Shown: positions 4,647-59,620 of the stretch, in pieces
Layout: each line of letters starts with the position of its first letter
Numbering within the stretch: the first letter of the stretch is position 1
Source of the DNA: Bryopsis sp. KO-2023
Lineage: Eukaryota > Chlorophyta > Ulvophyceae > Bryopsidales > Bryopsidaceae
Direction: 5' to 3'
DNA: 64,000 nt
Assembly: GCA_030272585.1 (NCBI GenBank)
Contig: BSYQ01000002.1
Location: 1,798,001 to 1,862,000, forward strand
The notes under the pieces: model-generated
Database searches by the model: none
Seen by the model: only the letters and a program-made list of their open reading frames with translations
What the model was told of the DNA's origin: nothing
Program-made: the position numbers and the translations under genes

Positions 4647-5067
4647 TGTTAGTCTTTTAACGCTATACGAGGTAGTTGGGATAGAGACGAGGGTGGCTGA
4701 CGCATGTGGGTTCACGAGTAAGACAGATTAGACCCAGAGTTTGGGGCATGCGTCAGCGTACTACACTTAGGGGTACTTAAGAGGCCCACTCGTTCATTTG
4801 ACATATAGTTACTTTGTAAGAACTTGGGATTCGTGGGATTGGTGTGTTCCCGCTTGTGTGTGTGTTTGTGTGTGTGTGTGTGTCTAAGTGTTTGCCTGAC
4901 GCAATCACTTATCCAACCAAGTGCTCTAGTAGCGTTCACAACCGCGCAAGCTAGAGAGTTGTCTAAACCAACAAACCCCACAAGTATACTTGCGTTAGCC
5001 AGCAAGTTATCACGAATCCAACCAACACAGCCGACCACTATTGCGTCACCCACAAGCTTCACTATCA
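4647..5067 (-). repeat. Solo LTR, second family (421 bp), copy 1
   Basis: The unit begins TGTTAGTC and ends CTATCA, and it is flanked on both sides by CAAAG (4642-4646 and 5068-5072), a perfect 5 bp target duplication. A reverse-orientation copy lies at 9393-9810. The two are roughly 90% or more identical, with differences concentrated in a (TG)n microsatellite near 4855-4885. No internal retroelement sequence remains, so each copy is best explained as LTR-LTR recombination. The strand given is relative to copy 2, since the true sense strand is unknown. An open frame translates from it on the minus strand (KLVGDAIVVGCVGWIRDNLL), but I treat this as incidental. Confidence 0.88.
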
Positions 5068-12774: not shown

Positions 12775-14043
12775 TTGGCAGGAGTTAGGCGATACATGCC
12801 CCCAGGGGAGCCGTATGAACGCTCCAGCCAACCTATAACCCTGGCTCGTGGAGCCATGAATTGGAAACACAGGCGAAACCAAATTGATCTCGCCAAATGT
12901 GTTATGGAGATCCGGGGAAGATTTCCTGGAGAGAGGACTAAGTGGATCATGGTACTTGCTAAATGGATTAACACTCATTCATTTGCAGCCAACACTTCAG
13001 TCAACGCTCTTCAAAAAGCCTATGCTGGCTTAACGGAGGCCGCAGTTTTGGAGGCAGAGAAGGAACTGCTGGAGGAGTCCATCGAAAGGAGGGTCACTGG
13101 AAGCTTAAGGGGTGGTGACCAAAGGATATCGAGTACAACCCCACTCTCAACGGAACAAAGGGATGATGAACCGACTGCTGAAGTCATAGCTCAGACGCTA
13201 GCTCCGGACACACCACAAGACGGTCTACCAATGGAAATGGAGATGGACGTTCCGGAGGCGGACCTCGACTTGGTTGACTCAGAAATTTATGGTGATGCGA
13301 CAAGGGTGATCCAAGCTGGGATTGATGGTGAAATTGCAAAAAAGTGCTTTCAGAAAAATCAAGCACTATCAACCCGGTTTTGGATTGTTCTGGGCGAGAT
13401 TCTCGAGAATGAAGGAGATTTTGCGTGCCGACCCCGTTTTGTCAAGTTCAAGCTCAGAAATGTGGATAAGGATGTAGTGGAGATCGTAAAGGACCTGGTG
13501 GAGTCCTCTTTATTGAGGATTCAGAATTTGTCCCTATGGAAAATTAACTGTGTAGCATACGCAGCTACATATGTATGTGCTAAGGAAGTCAAGAGCCGGC
13601 AAATAGACGTACATAAGTCAAGATTGGCGAGATGTGATGCCAAGTTGGCTCAGTTAAGAAGGATCTGTAGCTGGCTTGCTACCGAGCAAGATCGGCAGGA
13701 CAAAAAGGGAAAGATAACACCAGGACTTCAACGGATCCGATACGAACTCCGGAAACGCATTGGCCGACTGAGTAAAAGAAATATAAAAGCCAATTTGACA
13801 ATCTATGCTCAGAAGGTCAAGGGGGCGAACTTGCGACGGAACCAGGCACGAGATCAAGCAAGAGAAAGTCTCGAGAATGCGCTTTTCGCGGATGACCAGA
13901 GAAAGTTTTATGAGTACATCAAGCATCGAGGGAAACCACGGATCTACAAAAATGCTCCAACAGTTGGCATGGACTCGGTTGAAGAATATTGGTCAAGTAT
14001 TTCCGAAAATCACACGACTTCAATCGGAGAGCTAGCTGGGTAA
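12775..14043 (+). CDS. N-terminal half of RLE-LINE polyprotein (422 codons, upstream frame)
   Basis: Residues 20-90 (NWKHRRNQIDLAKCVMEI...NTSVNALQKAYAGL) match the W-rich helical segment that precedes RT in NeSL/Hero-type elements. An acidic linker (residues 120-175) follows, then the conserved pre-RT region with INCVAYAATYVCAKEV near residue 265 and RIRYELRKRIGRLSKR near residue 325. It ends VEEYWSSISENHTTS, the segment that normally leads straight into RT. The RT continues in another frame, with 55 nt of overlap (13989-14043). Related elements have one continuous ORF, so a single frameshift here is likely. Programmed frameshifting is the alternative, but I see no classical slippery heptamer in the overlap. 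Confidence 0.75.
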   Translation: MAGVRRYMPPGEPYERSSQPITLARGAMNWKHRRNQIDLAKCVMEIRGRFPGERTKWIMVLAKWINTHSFAANTSVNALQKAYAGLTEAAVLEAEKELLEESIERRVTGSLRGGDQRISSTTPLSTEQRDDEPTAEVIAQTLAPDTPQDGLPMEMEMDVPEADLDLVDSEIYGDATRVIQAGIDGEIAKKCFQKNQALSTRFWIVLGEILENEGDFACRPRFVKFKLRNVDKDVVEIVKDLVESSLLRIQNLSLWKINCVAYAATYVCAKEVKSRQIDVHKSRLARCDAKLAQLRRICSWLATEQDRQDKKGKITPGLQRIRYELRKRIGRLSKRNIKANLTIYAQKVKGANLRRNQARDQARESLENALFADDQRKFYEYIKHRGKPRIYKNAPTVGMDSVEEYWSSISENHTTSIGELAG

Positions 14044-16523
14044 ATCCATGGGGATCGTACATTGACACGGTAATGGAGGAAGTGTCGGAGATGGATGAGC
14101 AGGCGGAGGCGGTAACGCTTGGGGAAATAGATAGTTCGATCCGAGGAAAAGGTGGATTACGGGCTCCAGGTTGGGATGGTATCCCATACTGGACATACAG
14201 GAATTTCCCGGCTCTCAAAGAAAGCTTATGTCACAGCTTTTCAAGACTAATGAATGAGAGTGCGGGAATTCCTGAATGGTTAGTCCAAGGGCGAACTATT
14301 CTAATCCCCAAGCCGGGGAAAAGTCTTGACTCACCGGAACACCTGCGACCCATTACATTATTGAATACTATGTACAAGATATTCACAGGGGTCGTAGGTG
14401 GAAGGTTAAACCGGTGGGTCAAACCGGTCACCCAAGACCTAGTAGAGCAACATGGAGGAGCCAGTAAGGGCAGGTTGCACCTTGGTTGTCAAGGAACCCT
14501 TCTGGTGGATTCCGCAATCTCTGGTGATGCTCAACGTAATAGAAAAACGTTGAGGTCGGCCTGGGTCGATTTAGCGAAAGCTTTCGACTCAGTGTCGCAC
14601 GAAGGTTTAGTGCGACTGATCCAGAGAATGCGAATCCCCATGTTGCTAAAGGATATAATAGAAAGACTAGTGTCTTCTAGGGTGACCAAATTTGAGTTGA
14701 GAGTGGGGAAGGAAAGGAGTACATCGAGGTCCATCACCCTAAAGCGAGGGATCTTCCAAGGAGATACGCTAAGTCCACTACTATTCTGCCTTGCAATGGC
14801 CCCCACAACAGTTATGTTAAGAAAAGAAGATCAGTGGGAGTGGGGTCTTGCAAGAGAGAGACTGCCTGTCTATGCCTTTAATCATCAAATGTTCATTGAT
14901 GACTTAAAAATGTATGGCAAGTCAGAGCAGCATCTCGGGCAGTTAATAGTAGTGGCAAGGAGGAGTTGTGAGGAGATGGGCCTTCAGTTCAGCATTGGGA
15001 AATGCGCTGAATCTGCGGTCATCAGAGGAAAACAGCCCACCGGGATGTCGACAGGCGTCGTTTTTGCCATGCTTAGCCCAGGAGATACATACAAGTATCT
15101 GGGAATAACCCAAGGACACGTCAATAGCCCTACAGAGTTTAAAAGAAAATTAAAAAGTGAGTATTACAAAAGAGTCCACCTTGTGTGGTCGTCAGGTTTG
15201 TCGGCCAAAAACAAGGTGGTAGCTCACAACTCTTGGGCTGTTGGCGTGTTCAAATATGCATTTGGGGTTCTGGCATGGACAAAAACGGAGCTGGAAATTG
15301 TCGACCGTCGCACGAGGCATATCTTACAATCATGGGATTGTCACAAGCGACTAGGGAATATGGATCGACTCTACATGTCAAGGGATAAAGGAGGAAGGGG
15401 CCTGGTGGCCTTGTATGAGGAATACATGTTAAGAGTCATCCATATCGCTTGTAAGATATGCCTCACCCAGAATCCAATTCTGCGGGTGGTTGGAGCCCAT
15501 GACCGCATCCCGCAAAATCCACAGTTGGGGGAACGCTATCGGAGGAAACGTGTGATTCTTGGGCGGGCGGAGGAAATGGGTCAAGATGCTGGAATCCAAA
15601 TTGGATTCCCACCGCAGGGCGGCATGGAGGCGAATGGAGAAGTTATAAATGAAGTGAAGAAAATTGCCGCCCTGTTACGTGACATCAAGAGAAGTCTTCA
15701 AGAAAGGAGAGTGTCATGTTTACTTGATAAACATGACATGGGAAAATATATGAGGACGTTGAAGGAAAGATCTCTTGATGTTAGTAAAACTTTCGGGTGG
15801 TTGAGTAGCAGCACGCTGCGCAGCCGTTTCGAAAGTTTGGTGTTTGTAGCCCAAGAAGAGCGCCTACCCACGAATTATGTACTACATCACGTTATGAAGA
15901 AAGCGGACCATCCATTGTTTTGCCGCACATGCAAAAATCAGTCGGAAACAGTGAATCATATTCTTGCCGGCTGTTTTGAGTGTTATGGGCTCAATTCTTA
16001 TTTGAGACGTCATAATCAAATTTTAAAGTGGATCTATGCCACACTAAGAAAGGGAATGGGTATGGACCAGATTATGCAAAGCCCGAACACTATCAAAACG
16101 CCCGCATTGTGCGAATACGATGGATATCAACTGTGGTGGGATTTTAAATGGACTGCGGTGACAGCCAGTGCGACAAAACCGGATATGGTGATCGTGGACA
16201 AGAGGGGGTCCAAGCTTACAATAGTTGAAGCTACATGCTGCTCCGAGTACCATATGACAGATCGTTACAGAGAGAAAGAAGAGAAATATCGCCACCTCGA
16301 AGGAGATTTAAGGAAAATCTATGGAGGGTATGAGGTGGCGATAGTACCAGTTGTCATAGGCGTGCTCGGAGGCATAGGCGAAGGGAGAGTAAGCTTGGAC
16401 CACTCCCTCTCACGAATCCCATTTTGTGGCGAACAAAGGGAGAGCCTGCGAAAGGCCATACAGAAGAGCGTGCTGCTGAAGTCCATCCGTCTACTAATGT
16501 TCCATCTCAGCCAACCTTCCTGA
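13989..16523 (+). CDS. LINE reverse transcriptase with CCHC knuckle and restriction-like endonuclease
   Basis: 844 codons. The first ATG is probably not a real start, because the homologous protein begins upstream. RT boxes in order are PGWDGIPYWTYRNF (14168), a GRTILIPKPGKS box (14290), LRPITLLNTMYKIF (14345), VDLAKAFDSVSH (14565), KRGIFQGDTLSPLLF (14742), FIDDLKMYGK with the catalytic DD (14892-14921) and YKYLGITQGH (15093). The thumb and linker follow, then a knuckle C-x2-C-x10-H-x3-C (CRTC...NHILAGC, 15921-15974). The endonuclease PD of KPDMVIVDK is at 16179-16184, VEAT near 16225, EKEEKYRHL near 16275 and VVIGVLGG near 16350. Such enzymes nick the target and prime reverse transcription from it, often at a fixed site. 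All catalytic landmarks are present, so this half may still be functional. Confidence 0.93.
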   Translation: MVKYFRKSHDFNRRASWVNPWGSYIDTVMEEVSEMDEQAEAVTLGEIDSSIRGKGGLRAPGWDGIPYWTYRNFPALKESLCHSFSRLMNESAGIPEWLVQGRTILIPKPGKSLDSPEHLRPITLLNTMYKIFTGVVGGRLNRWVKPVTQDLVEQHGGASKGRLHLGCQGTLLVDSAISGDAQRNRKTLRSAWVDLAKAFDSVSHEGLVRLIQRMRIPMLLKDIIERLVSSRVTKFELRVGKERSTSRSITLKRGIFQGDTLSPLLFCLAMAPTTVMLRKEDQWEWGLARERLPVYAFNHQMFIDDLKMYGKSEQHLGQLIVVARRSCEEMGLQFSIGKCAESAVIRGKQPTGMSTGVVFAMLSPGDTYKYLGITQGHVNSPTEFKRKLKSEYYKRVHLVWSSGLSAKNKVVAHNSWAVGVFKYAFGVLAWTKTELEIVDRRTRHILQSWDCHKRLGNMDRLYMSRDKGGRGLVALYEEYMLRVIHIACKICLTQNPILRVVGAHDRIPQNPQLGERYRRKRVILGRAEEMGQDAGIQIGFPPQGGMEANGEVINEVKKIAALLRDIKRSLQERRVSCLLDKHDMGKYMRTLKERSLDVSKTFGWLSSSTLRSRFESLVFVAQEERLPTNYVLHHVMKKADHPLFCRTCKNQSETVNHILAGCFECYGLNSYLRRHNQILKWIYATLRKGMGMDQIMQSPNTIKTPALCEYDGYQLWWDFKWTAVTASATKPDMVIVDKRGSKLTIVEATCCSEYHMTDRYREKEEKYRHLEGDLRKIYGGYEVAIVPVVIGVLGGIGEGRVSLDHSLSRIPFCGEQRESLRKAIQKSVLLKSIRLLMFHLSQPS

Positions 16524-27788: not shown

Positions 27789-28071
27789 GTATATAACAGA
27801 GTTGTGCGCAAGTCGGATTTTCGACAACGACAACGGTACGGCAACGGCAATTAACGACGCCGTTGTTGCCGTGAAAACTGTTACCGTACCGTTGTCGCAC
27901 AACGGTTTAACGGCCGTTGTTGACCGTTAATAACGGTGACCAACGGCCACCGTTAACGGCGTTTCGATTAGTAAATTAGAATGAGTGAACTCCTTTCCCA
28001 TTCTCTCCTCGTTCGTTTCGCTCGTGTGAAAGGTAATAAAACTCTGCCAAGAACCAATTAAACAAAAGAGG

Positions 28072-28879
28072 AAGCTTTTTCCGAGCACGACGTACTTTGT
28101 CGCGCTCAAAACGAGTGAGAAACGAGGGAGAAAAGCCAGTTTTAGTTTTTTTCACAGAAACTGGCTTTTCTCCCTTGTTTCTCATTGTTTCTTATTCGTT
28201 TCGAGCGCGACAAAGTGCGTTATGCTCGAAAAAGTCTTGGTTTTATCGTCGTCGTGATCTCCAGGTCGAAAACAACTTTTCAACAGGAACGACCCGTGGT
28301 GTGGGAAAAGATCTGTGTTAGATCTATTTTTAGGTTAGTAAAGTTCCGTTGTGGGTTCCGCTTTCAGTGCCGCCGAAGTTCCGCCAAAAAGCGGAACTTA
28401 CAAGGGTCCTTTCAAGGTAAAGTGAGCGGAACAAGTCGAGTTCCGCTCTTCCCAATACTGCCTTTTAAGTTTCTATTTTAGGGGAATTTAATTTTTTTAA
28501 TCGGATTGGGAAGAGCGGAACTCGACTTGTTCCGCTCACTTTACCTTAAAAGGACCCTTGTAAGTTCCGCCAAAAAGCGGAACTTCGACGGCACTGAAAG
28601 CGGAACCCACAACGGAACTTTACTAACCTAAAAATAGATCTAACACAGATCTTTTCCCACACCACGGGTCGTTTCTGTTGAAAAGTTGTTTTCGACCTGG
28701 AGATCACGTCGACGATAAAACCAAGACTTTTTCGAGCACGACGCACTTTGTCGCGCTCGAAACGAGTGAGAAACGAGGGAGAAAAACCAGTTTTTGTGAA
28801 AAAAACTAAAACTGGCTTTTCTCCCTCGTTTCTCATTCGTTTTGAGCGCGACAAAGTACGTCGTGCTCGGAAAAAGCTT
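28072..28879. repeat. Near-perfect 0.8 kb hairpin inside the hAT-type element
   Basis: The arm 28072-28456 is the reverse complement of 28505-28879, around a 48 bp spacer. Agreement is high over about 380 bp, with a few mismatches and small gaps. Each arm holds a further hairpin (near 28115-28215 and 28750-28850) in which an AGTGAGAAACGAGGGAGAAA-type sequence meets its own complement, so the DNA is palindromic at two scales. A transcript would fold into long double-stranded RNA. Confidence 0.93.
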
Positions 28880-29162
28880 ACCTTTGCTTTGAACACTTTT
28901 TTACAACATTTTACGACCCTCTTCACACACCAAACGAACGAGGACAGCTTGAGAGGGATTAAAACTATTTACTTATAGTAATTACGACCGTTGTAATCGA
29001 TGCTAACGGCGAGCGCCGTTGCAACGGCTTTCTGACCGTTAACGGCGTTTTAACGGCCATCAACGGTGGCGGAGAGTTCGTGACGGGAACGGTACGGCAA
29101 CGGCCCGTTCCCGTTAACGGCGCCGTTATTAACGGAGCCGTTGCAACGACGCACAACTCTGG

Positions 29163-29233
29163 TGATACATGATACGGGACGTTGGTGGACCGGCCCGCCC
29201 CCTTTGCGGGCTGTGCCGCTTTATCCCGTATCA
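29163..29233 (-). repeat. TRIM 3' LTR (71 bp)
   Basis: Identical to 29629-29699 over all 71 bases. The LTR itself has complementary ends (TGATACGGGA/TCCCGTATCA) and a GC-rich middle, so it can form a hairpin. Confidence 0.93.
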
Positions 29234-29613
29234 TCTCGTCCCCCCTCGGGCCAGTGGTCGCCCTCGACCACCTTCTCCTTGTGCCCGTTACTCCATTCTC
29301 CTTGACCCCTCTGCGATTACCGGGTTACCGTTCTCTCGCGGGTCTATTCGGGGGTTCTCCAGGATCTTTCTTGTGATCCTCTGATCCTTCGTTCTTATCC
29401 CTTTGATCCGTCTAGTCTCTTGAGCTTATGGTCTTTTGCCTTGCTCTGCGGCGGCGATCACTGTGATGATCTCAGCCCCCTCCCCTCCTTCGCAGTGATC
29501 CTCATGCTCTTTCACCTCTCGTTACTACCACTCTCGGGTCAGAGGCGCCAACTCACTCTCAACTTCCATGGCCTCGCTAGGACTCGAACTTGTGACCTTC
29601 GGATCGCAAGTTC

Positions 29614-29626
29614 GGCTCCGAAACCA
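29614..29626 (-). promoter_or_regulatory. TRIM primer-binding site
   Basis: The minus strand reads TGGTTTCGGAGCC two bases after the LTR, sharing its first 12 bases with the gypsy primer site at 4237-4248. Downstream (about 29575-29600) the leader carries AGTTCGAGTCC, one base from the tRNA/Pol III B box. It may be tRNA-derived. Confidence 0.85.
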
Positions 29627-29628
29627 AA

Positions 29629-29699
29629 TGATACATGATACGGGACGTTGGTGGACCGGCCCGCCCCCTTTGCGGGCTGTGCCGCTTTATCCCGTATCA
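29629..29699 (-). repeat. TRIM 5' LTR (71 bp)
   Basis: The 5' LTR on the minus strand, followed by the primer site. It is identical to 29163-29233. Confidence 0.93.
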
Positions 29700-29711
29700 T
29701 CTGGTATATAA

Positions 29712-58354: not shown

Positions 58355-59259
58355 CTAATCAACAACAACATGCTTCGAGAAATCCCAAACCCTGAATTTG
58401 CCATTGCCGTCCAACACCACCAGCTCCTCATCGGTACACCAAACGTAGTTTGCTTTGACTTGGACTGGGAAACGCAGCGTTTTCCCCGTTTCAGCATCCC
58501 AAATCCAGGCCCCCCGTTCGCTCAACGCATCATCGATGGACACCGAAGAACCCCCCGAGTGATCCGCGAAACAAGCCGCCGCCACCGCGAAACCGTTGAA
58601 CGCGATGGAGGCGGCGCTGAACTTCTCGTTGTCGAACACCCGGAGGCAAGCACCGCTGTTCAAATCCCAGAACCGCACGGTGTGGTCTGACGCCCCGCTC
58701 ACCACCTCATCCCTGTGTGCATCCACGGAGTCCACCCGGTTGGTATGCCCCCTCAACACATGCATGCACTTCCGCGAGGTGGCGCTCCATACCCGTAGAG
58801 TGGTGTCCTCCCCTCCACTCACCAGGATTGCCCCATCCCGGGCTGCACACACACACCGAACGATGTGCTGATGCCCGGTCAACTCACCTTCGCACTCCCA
58901 GCTCCCCCCTTCTCCCCTCCTTCCCCATATCTTGACCGTGTCGTCCCCCCCCGCGGTGACGACCCCCTCCCCATGTTCGATCGCACTCAAAATCTGGCTG
59001 CCGTGGGCTGCATCGACGCAGAAGCTCCGCCGGCCTTCTACGAGGTCGAACCCGCACATCCTCCCATCCCAGTAGCCGACGATCAGCAACTCCCCGGCGA
59101 AACACATCGCAGAGGGTTGACCCCAGTCATCGTCGTCCTTCTCGGTTTCGAGCAGCCGCTGTTTCGTTTTCAAGTCAAAAATTTGGGCCGAGTCGAAATC
59201 CTTGATTGCAACGAGGTTTCCGCGTTTGGCGGCAGTCACGGGGTACAGGGTGGTATCCA
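58355..59259 (-). CDS. WD40-repeat domain exon (seven-bladed propeller)
   Basis: The last exon of a minus-strand gene, with the stop at 58355-58357. The acceptor T8-GTTTCACAG sits just before 59259, so the in-frame Met upstream is intronic. About 300 codons hold seven blades: NLVAIKDFDSAQIFDLKT, LLIVGYWDGRMCGFDL, GVVTAGGDDTVKIW, ILVSGGEDTTLRVW, EVVSGASDHTVRFWD, a degenerate blade ending RGAWIWDAETGK, and ELVVLDGNGKFRVWD. GH dipeptides (TGHQH, RGHTNRVDSV) precede blades 4 and 5. Seven blades make a closed propeller that binds partner or substrate peptides. The upstream exon resembles the end of an F-box, so an F-box/WD substrate receptor of an SCF ubiquitin ligase is the best guess. Its GC content is well above its surroundings. 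Confidence 0.92.
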
Positions 59260-59620
59260 CTGTGAAACAAAAAAAACAGCCAACGAGTGAAAAAAACATT
59301 CACAGCCAACAGAGGATGCCACCCCCCCCCACCCCCCCAAACACACCCCCACAGGGTGCTGGTGAAAAGAATGCTGGAAAAATGCCGGAAAGAAGCTGAA
59401 AGGTAGAGGGAAAAAAAAAAGGAGTACCAAATAAGGATTGAAAACAAAACAAACCAAATTCCACATTGCTGTCATCATGCTCCACAGCTTTCTGTTGTCT
59501 ATGTGATTCAGTTTGCTGCAAATTCACATTCCCCCCCCAAGAAAAAAACCCTCCATGAAACCCTCCTGAGAAAAAAACAACCCTCCATGAAAACGGATGT
59601 GTTTATTGCACCCGGCATAC

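Follow-up and report, generated by a model that had tools for sequence, protein, structure and literature searches.

The kinds of element described here are known ones: TRIMs and hAT elements of the non-autonomous type have been documented, as have nested insertions, and a nested insertion is in itself ordinary. Gao et al. (2016; PMC4717578) already reported TRIMs from Chlamydomonas reinhardtii and Volvox carteri. The motors of TRIMs are seldom known, and in the portion of that survey on which we draw, candidates for an autonomous partner are given for 11 of 289 TRIM subfamilies, four of them encoding all domains. In the Triticeae, complexes with three LTRs and flanking duplications are presented as template-switch products in the part of Sabot and Schulman (2007; PMC1950507) considered here. 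Among the titles listed in literature searches, none concerned the nuclear transposons of Bryopsis.

In this study, we analyzed a window of 64,000 nucleotides (C2:1798001-1862000) from the 91,088,769-base, 28-contig assembly of Bryopsis sp. KO-2023, a siphonous ulvophycean green alga. The window holds a TRIM that lies across the right end of a hAT-like element. The layering of this nested pair is as clear as in a textbook, but it is of a common sort. Its wider value lies in the TRIM, whose likely link to a Ty3 family that we call GypA is the point worth following.

A TRIM across the end of a hAT-like element

The features of the locus are collected in Table 1. The sequence-only reading had proposed an 8-bp hAT duplication on either side of the pair, and GTATATAA was indeed read at both sites. 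Direct reading also agrees that TCTGG takes in the final 4 bp of the hAT element plus the base that opens its duplication. Moreover, the same ends and exact duplications recur in independent TRIM and hAT copies, which upholds the boundaries assigned to both elements. With boundaries set by the element ends, the probability that the 8-bp and the 5-bp duplications both agree by chance is 4^-13, about 1.5e-8. The two elements had been taken for non-autonomous, and this is supported, as no open reading frame overlapping them exceeds 126 aa. The longest frame inside the TRIM has 89 aa and enters from the hAT element.

Table 1. Features of the nested locus, in window coordinates
Feature	Position	Strand	Evidence
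hAT target-site duplication, left 8-bp copy GTATATAA	27789..27796		direct reading; direct-repeat scan
hAT-like non-autonomous foldback element, 1365 bp	27797..29161	+	12-bp terminal inverted repeats; TRIM-less copies with their own 8-bp duplications
hAT left terminal inverted repeat CAGAGTTGTGCG	27797..27808	+	genome-wide exact matches
hAT left subterminal region, AACGG/CCGTT-rich	27797..27966	+	motif count against shuffles
Internal foldback, left arm (two inverted-repeat blocks)	28072..28456	+	95-96% complementary to 28505-28879
Internal foldback, right arm	28505..28879	+	repeat scan
hAT right subterminal region, AACGG/CCGTT-rich	28957..29161	+	motif count against shuffles
hAT right terminal inverted repeat CGCACAACTCTG	29150..29161	-	direct reading; repeat scan
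TRIM target-site duplication, left 5-bp copy TCTGG	29158..29162		direct reading; copy comparison
TRIM, 537 bp, minus as sense strand	29163..29699	-	order of primer-binding site and polypurine tract; GypA junctions
TRIM 3' LTR, 71 bp	29163..29233	-	71/71 bases identical to 5' LTR
Putative polypurine tract GAGGGGGGACGAGA	29234..29247	-	direct reading; compared with the G-run preceding the GypA 3' LTR
Putative primer-binding site TGGTTTCGGAGC	29615..29626	-	common with GypA; site of TRIM/GypA junctions
TRIM 5' LTR, 71 bp	29629..29699	-	identity to 29163-29233; hairpin fold
TRIM duplication, right copy TCTGG	29700..29704		direct reading; copy comparison
hAT duplication, right copy GTATATAA, displaced by the TRIM	29704..29711		direct reading; repeat scan

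The 8-bp copies surround both elements, while the 5-bp copies surround only the TRIM and cut the hAT end. Therefore, the hAT element came first. This is the simplest order that yields both duplications, and it is the one that had been claimed from the letters. We hold it very probable that two separate insertions took place, hAT and then TRIM, the latter as a cDNA inserted at the hAT right end with borrowed reverse transcriptase and integrase. Specifically, a hAT transposase acting in trans would have brought the non-autonomous foldback element of 1365 bp to this site and duplicated GTATATAA. Later, the reverse transcriptase of an autonomous LTR retrotransposon would have produced the 537-bp TRIM cDNA, and the borrowed integrase would have inserted it where the right end of the hAT element meets the hAT duplication, duplicating TCTGG.

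A similarity search with the window, in which 40 of 203 candidates were scored, gave 53 matches. Each match stops at the boundary of its own element, whether hAT or TRIM. Among the candidates scored, identity to the window is 97-99% for TRIM copies and 86-95% for full or near-full hAT copies; this fits an older hAT element without being proof of it, and recovery by similarity to the window favours intact copies. It had also been suggested to look for hAT copies lacking the TRIM and for sites lacking both elements. The former exist, as detailed below, but the latter did not turn up: in a genome search, the joined flanks match just the two halves of the window, so this one assembly holds no paralogous empty site.

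Elsewhere in the window, an 846-aa open frame at 13983-16523 carries an RVT_1 reverse transcriptase domain and a sub-threshold zf-RVT match, as in a LINE-like element. On the minus strand, 58358-59299 encodes a WD40 protein that is 100% identical to BSKO_02547 over 96% of its length.

The TRIM family and its probable link to GypA

The younger element has the features of a TRIM, namely short direct terminal repeats (71 bp), a length of 537 bp overall, a 5-bp duplication, a putative polypurine tract and no coding capacity. In minus-strand sense, its LTR (TGATACGGG...TGTATCA) begins with TG and ends with CA, and the 71 bases fold into one hairpin (-33.2 kcal/mol). The 5' LTR is followed by the spacer TT, so that the putative primer-binding site TGGTTTCGGAGC starts 2 bases inward, and a G-run precedes the second LTR. 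Judging from this order and from the GypA junctions described below, the minus strand appears to be the sense strand.

We compared the window's TRIM with 33 other near-full copies. An exact 5-bp duplication is present in 28 of these 34, the exceptions being L015, L025, L035, L039, L040 and L045. At L015 and L035 another TRIM adjoins on the left with its interior end, L025 has only a 4-bp duplication, and L040 has an extra adjoining LTR. LTR pairs were scored in 32 of the 34 copies: 26 pairs are identical, four differ at one base, one at five and one at seven. Genome-wide, there are 45 canonical TRIM LTR-interior junctions (up to 2 mismatches; reversed control 0). Regarding tRNA-derived sequences, ARAGORN called 0 genes in the TRIM LTR, and Rfam gave two sub-threshold matches there, neither of them to tRNA or 5S. 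The interior contains one B-box-like word, AGTTCGAGTCC. A pattern search for a tRNA gene corresponding to the primer-binding site gave 25 loci, and none of the three that were fetched was a tRNA by ARAGORN.

In the LTR search, 40 of 117 candidates were scored. At C6:4632617-4632687, a TRIM LTR 100% identical to that of the window is followed by gag and pol frames. We rejected the view that this locus is simply an autonomous element bearing a TRIM LTR. The other copies of that interior that were fetched all bear a different LTR, of 419 bp, and C6 is therefore a chimera; it is also interrupted by another GypA copy. GypA encodes gag, protease, reverse transcriptase, RNase H and integrase domains of the Ty3 type. 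Its interior is abundant, as 39 of the 40 candidates scored, from a total of 211, match at 99%. Upstream of the GypA leader, an LTR different from that of the TRIM was found in 17 of 17 stretches (16 further copies plus one array unit, at 16 loci). The copy at C14:2533302-2543395 measures 10,094 bp and has identical 419-bp LTRs and the 5-bp duplication TGCTG. Canonical GypA LTR-leader junctions number 193 (up to 2 mismatches; reversed control 0). In addition, five GypA leader matches at C9:264436-306702 follow one another at intervals of exactly 10,264 bases, a spacing that would suit a tandem array of the element. The window itself contains GypA LTR tails at 5067 (plus) and 9393 (minus), with no exact LTR start nearby.

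The TRIM and GypA have in common a 13-nt primer-binding region, TTGGTTTCGGAGC, and the LTR tail TATCA. BLAST of the TRIM against the GypA leader and 419-bp LTR returned one 19-bp match at the LTR end and primer-binding site and two chance 8-mers. The two families are also physically joined. A GypA LTR leads into a TRIM interior at C1:9110073-9110105 and C12:1177640-1177672, and a TRIM LTR leads into a GypA interior at C6:4632679-4632712 and C12:1187317-1187350 (up to 2 mismatches genome-wide; reversed control 0 for each type). These are four composite junctions at three loci, against 45 canonical TRIM and 193 canonical GypA junctions. In three of the four, the switch point falls within the common 13 nt. 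At C1 it falls at TATCA, the spacer being the TT of the TRIM, and the 3' interior end of GypA precedes the GypA LTR.

At the C12 locus, the composite extends over about 1177196-1187412. Its two junctions are on one strand and 9.68 kb apart, close to the 9,675 bp that separate one LTR end from the other in the C14 copy of GypA. The outer ends are TRIM LTR ends of one variant, with CGAAC flanking both sides. Judged from its outer ends and its two junctions, C12 appears to be arranged as LTR(TRIM)-GypA interior-LTR(GypA)-TRIM interior-LTR(TRIM).

Because the primer-binding region and the LTR tail are common to both families and the composites are joined there, we regard GypA as the likely motor of the TRIM. 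We go no further than likely because the 12-mer of the primer-binding site is also present in other repeats and the three loci fetched in search of a primer gave no tRNA gene. A more specific reading has about an even chance of being right. According to it, the TRIM would be a hyper-minimal parasite of GypA that has kept in common with it only the 13-nt region, TATCA and the G-run polypurine tract, and the rare composites would be strand-transfer products formed at the primer-binding site in mixed particles and integrated with 5-bp duplications. The apparent structure of C12 fits a template-switch product with partners from unrelated families. However, the same structure would result if a GypA circle with one LTR recombined with a resident TRIM at the primer-binding site, and the chimeras could also have arisen by exchange between copies already integrated instead of within a single particle. 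Both routes need TRIM and GypA DNA or cDNA to meet; only the template switch implies a common particle.

It is also possible, though we find it considerably less probable, that another Ty3 or other LTR family moves the TRIM and that the composites are recombinants formed after insertion through the common primer-binding site. The unrelated LTRs of the TRIM and GypA would suit such a history, as would the wider occurrence of the 12-mer and the tandem TRIM arrangements at L015, L035 and L040. Against it, the 5-bp duplication and the same-variant outer TRIM LTR ends of C12 are what one integration predicts, and the common stretch, 13 nt plus TATCA, is short for homologous recombination. GypA remains, in our view, the better candidate. 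One 91-Mb algal assembly contains this young TRIM, the abundant and likewise young Ty3 family, and physical hybrids of the two at their common primer-binding region, which makes a specific TRIM partner testable in an organism grown in culture.

Placement of the TRIM and relatives of the hAT-like element

Why the TRIM sits on the exact end of the hAT element can be approached from both families. Around the 28 TRIM copies with exact duplications there is a weak target preference, with A at -3 in 18/28 and T at +7 in 15/28, to which the window site conforms. The position looks like chance under such a weak integrase preference. One could instead suppose that chromatin, structure or sequence steers TRIMs to transposon ends, and both this preference and the TRIM copy L025, which sits 3 bp from a GypA LTR terminus, can be cited in its favour. 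We consider steering improbable, as the preference is weak and found in ordinary flanks as well, and a hAT-end position occurs in just 1/34 TRIM copies. As for L025 itself, the TRIM at L025:250-860 has the 4-bp duplication TCTC, and it is the right copy that lies 3 bp from the LTR terminus.

A TRIM-like segment at every hAT end, which the sequence-only reading had named as the sign of one composite element, is not what the copies display. Among 104 hAT-type terminal 11-mers (loci examined plus the window, the loci partly overlapping), one is followed by a TRIM, and among the 34 TRIM copies, one has the hAT terminal 8-mer within 40 bp; both are the window's own. That the two segments moved as a single unit, as their abutting and the outer 8-bp duplication around both might suggest, is thus rejected as extremely improbable, since their adjacency is confined to the window among the copies examined and the TRIM bears its own 5-bp duplication. 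We therefore retain two separate insertions. The reverse nesting was observed at L086, where a 465-bp element with CAGAGATAGGACTT ends and the duplication CCCGTTAC lies within a TRIM.

The terminal inverted repeats of the hAT element match at 12 of 12 positions and begin with CAG. The end 12-mer has 117 forward and 119 reverse exact matches in the genome (reversed control 1 and 1). AACGG/CCGTT occurs 12 times in the left 170 bp, 16 times in the right 205 bp and twice in the intervening 990 bp; in 2000 shuffles, the left and right means were 0.33 and 0.43, with a maximum of 4 each. Because subterminal repeats of this sort bind transposase in hAT elements, we read these motifs as putative transposase binding sites.

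Exact 8-bp duplications flank 18 elements with CAGAGTTG ends, the window's included (L081 and L082 being parts of a single duplicated segment). The test failed at L093 and L094 (1/8 each), L099 (1/8, the end being probably misplaced), L100 (7/8) and twice at L101 (2/8 and 5/8). Copies without the TRIM include L009 (95%, duplication ATCCTGAT) and L010 (94%, duplication GTACTCAC), and an independent copy of 1388 bp at L096:5140-6527 has the duplication CACAGAAC. This last copy is surrounded by an element of a third end type (CAGTCATGGGCTGA/...CCCATGACTG; L096:4777-6575) with the 8-bp duplication TTTGCCAT, forming another nested pair.

Many of the end 12-mer matches belong to a 36-bp near-perfect palindrome of the terminal repeat, CAGAGTTGTGCGCCGTTGCAACGGCGCACAACTCTG; allowing up to 3 mismatches, it has 89 sites in the genome, of which 31 are exact (reversed control 0). 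We discarded the idea that these palindromes are ultra-small transposons. Wherever a fetched locus had clear ends, the palindrome proved to be the right end of a hAT-type element of 176-242 bp that carries these terminal repeats and an 8-bp duplication, for example L091:7718-7949, L096:7932-8163 and L097:8260-8435. The 465-bp elements, at L086:430-894 and L101:6360-6824, form a second hAT-type family with CAGAGATAGGACTT/AAGTCCTATCTCTG ends, 8-bp duplications and a tRNA-like B-box word in the interior.

The expected transposase source would be a hAT family with CAGAGTTGTGC ends. No transposase sharing the window's hAT ends was found among the PF05699 matches checked on C1 and C2. At least 150 matches to this hAT dimerization domain were scored genome-wide, many in long open frames. 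Of the 32 on C1 and C2, two have an exact end 12-mer less than 10 kb away (at 1.7 and 7.0 kb), and five are situated on a portion of C2 to which the end list does not extend. Position-by-position comparison of the transposase loci L049-L067 gave no usable element ends. L090 was rejected as an autonomous hAT: this hAT-ended element (L090:286-7091, duplication TCGTGGAG) contains a Ty3 frame of 1701 aa on the minus strand, chromovirus-like by reading.

Comparison with described systems

The older element resembles non-autonomous hAT elements and hAT MITEs in its 8-bp duplication, short CAGAG... inverted repeats, subterminal repeats and lack of a transposase. It differs from them in its large internal foldback and in having short relatives with a 36-bp palindrome as right end.

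The TRIM, for its part, resembles those of Gao et al. (PMC4717578) as a short noncoding LTR element with a putative primer-binding site, a putative polypurine tract and 5-bp duplications, and its 71-bp LTR falls inside the 30-500 bp search range given there. However, the partners described in the portion of that survey considered share LTRs and internal sequence with their TRIM, whereas here just the primer-binding region and the LTR tail are common. The 5-bp duplications are also a likeness to Helenus/TRIMp3 (Kojima, 2024; PMC10886601), TRIMs of fungi and plants in the part of that paper used. Those families are defined by a tRNA-like sequence in the LTR, and none was found in this LTR.

The autonomous and non-autonomous LTR families of wheat, in the account on which we draw, have little in common beyond an identical primer-binding site and LTR terminus, as is the case here. 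That account does not use the name TRIM for the non-autonomous partners in wheat, and their common LTR end is the 5' terminus (9 bases) instead of the 3' tail TATCA. The composites joined at the primer-binding site are a further difference from the wheat families. Finally, C12 appears to resemble the complexes of Sabot and Schulman (PMC1950507) in its three LTRs, two interiors, like outer LTRs and 5-bp duplications, the middle of C12 being deduced from its ends and junctions. The cases covered by the relevant part of that paper join members of a single family (Angela, Squiq, Opie), whereas in C12 a TRIM is joined, at the primer-binding site, to a Ty3 element whose LTRs are unrelated to those of the TRIM.
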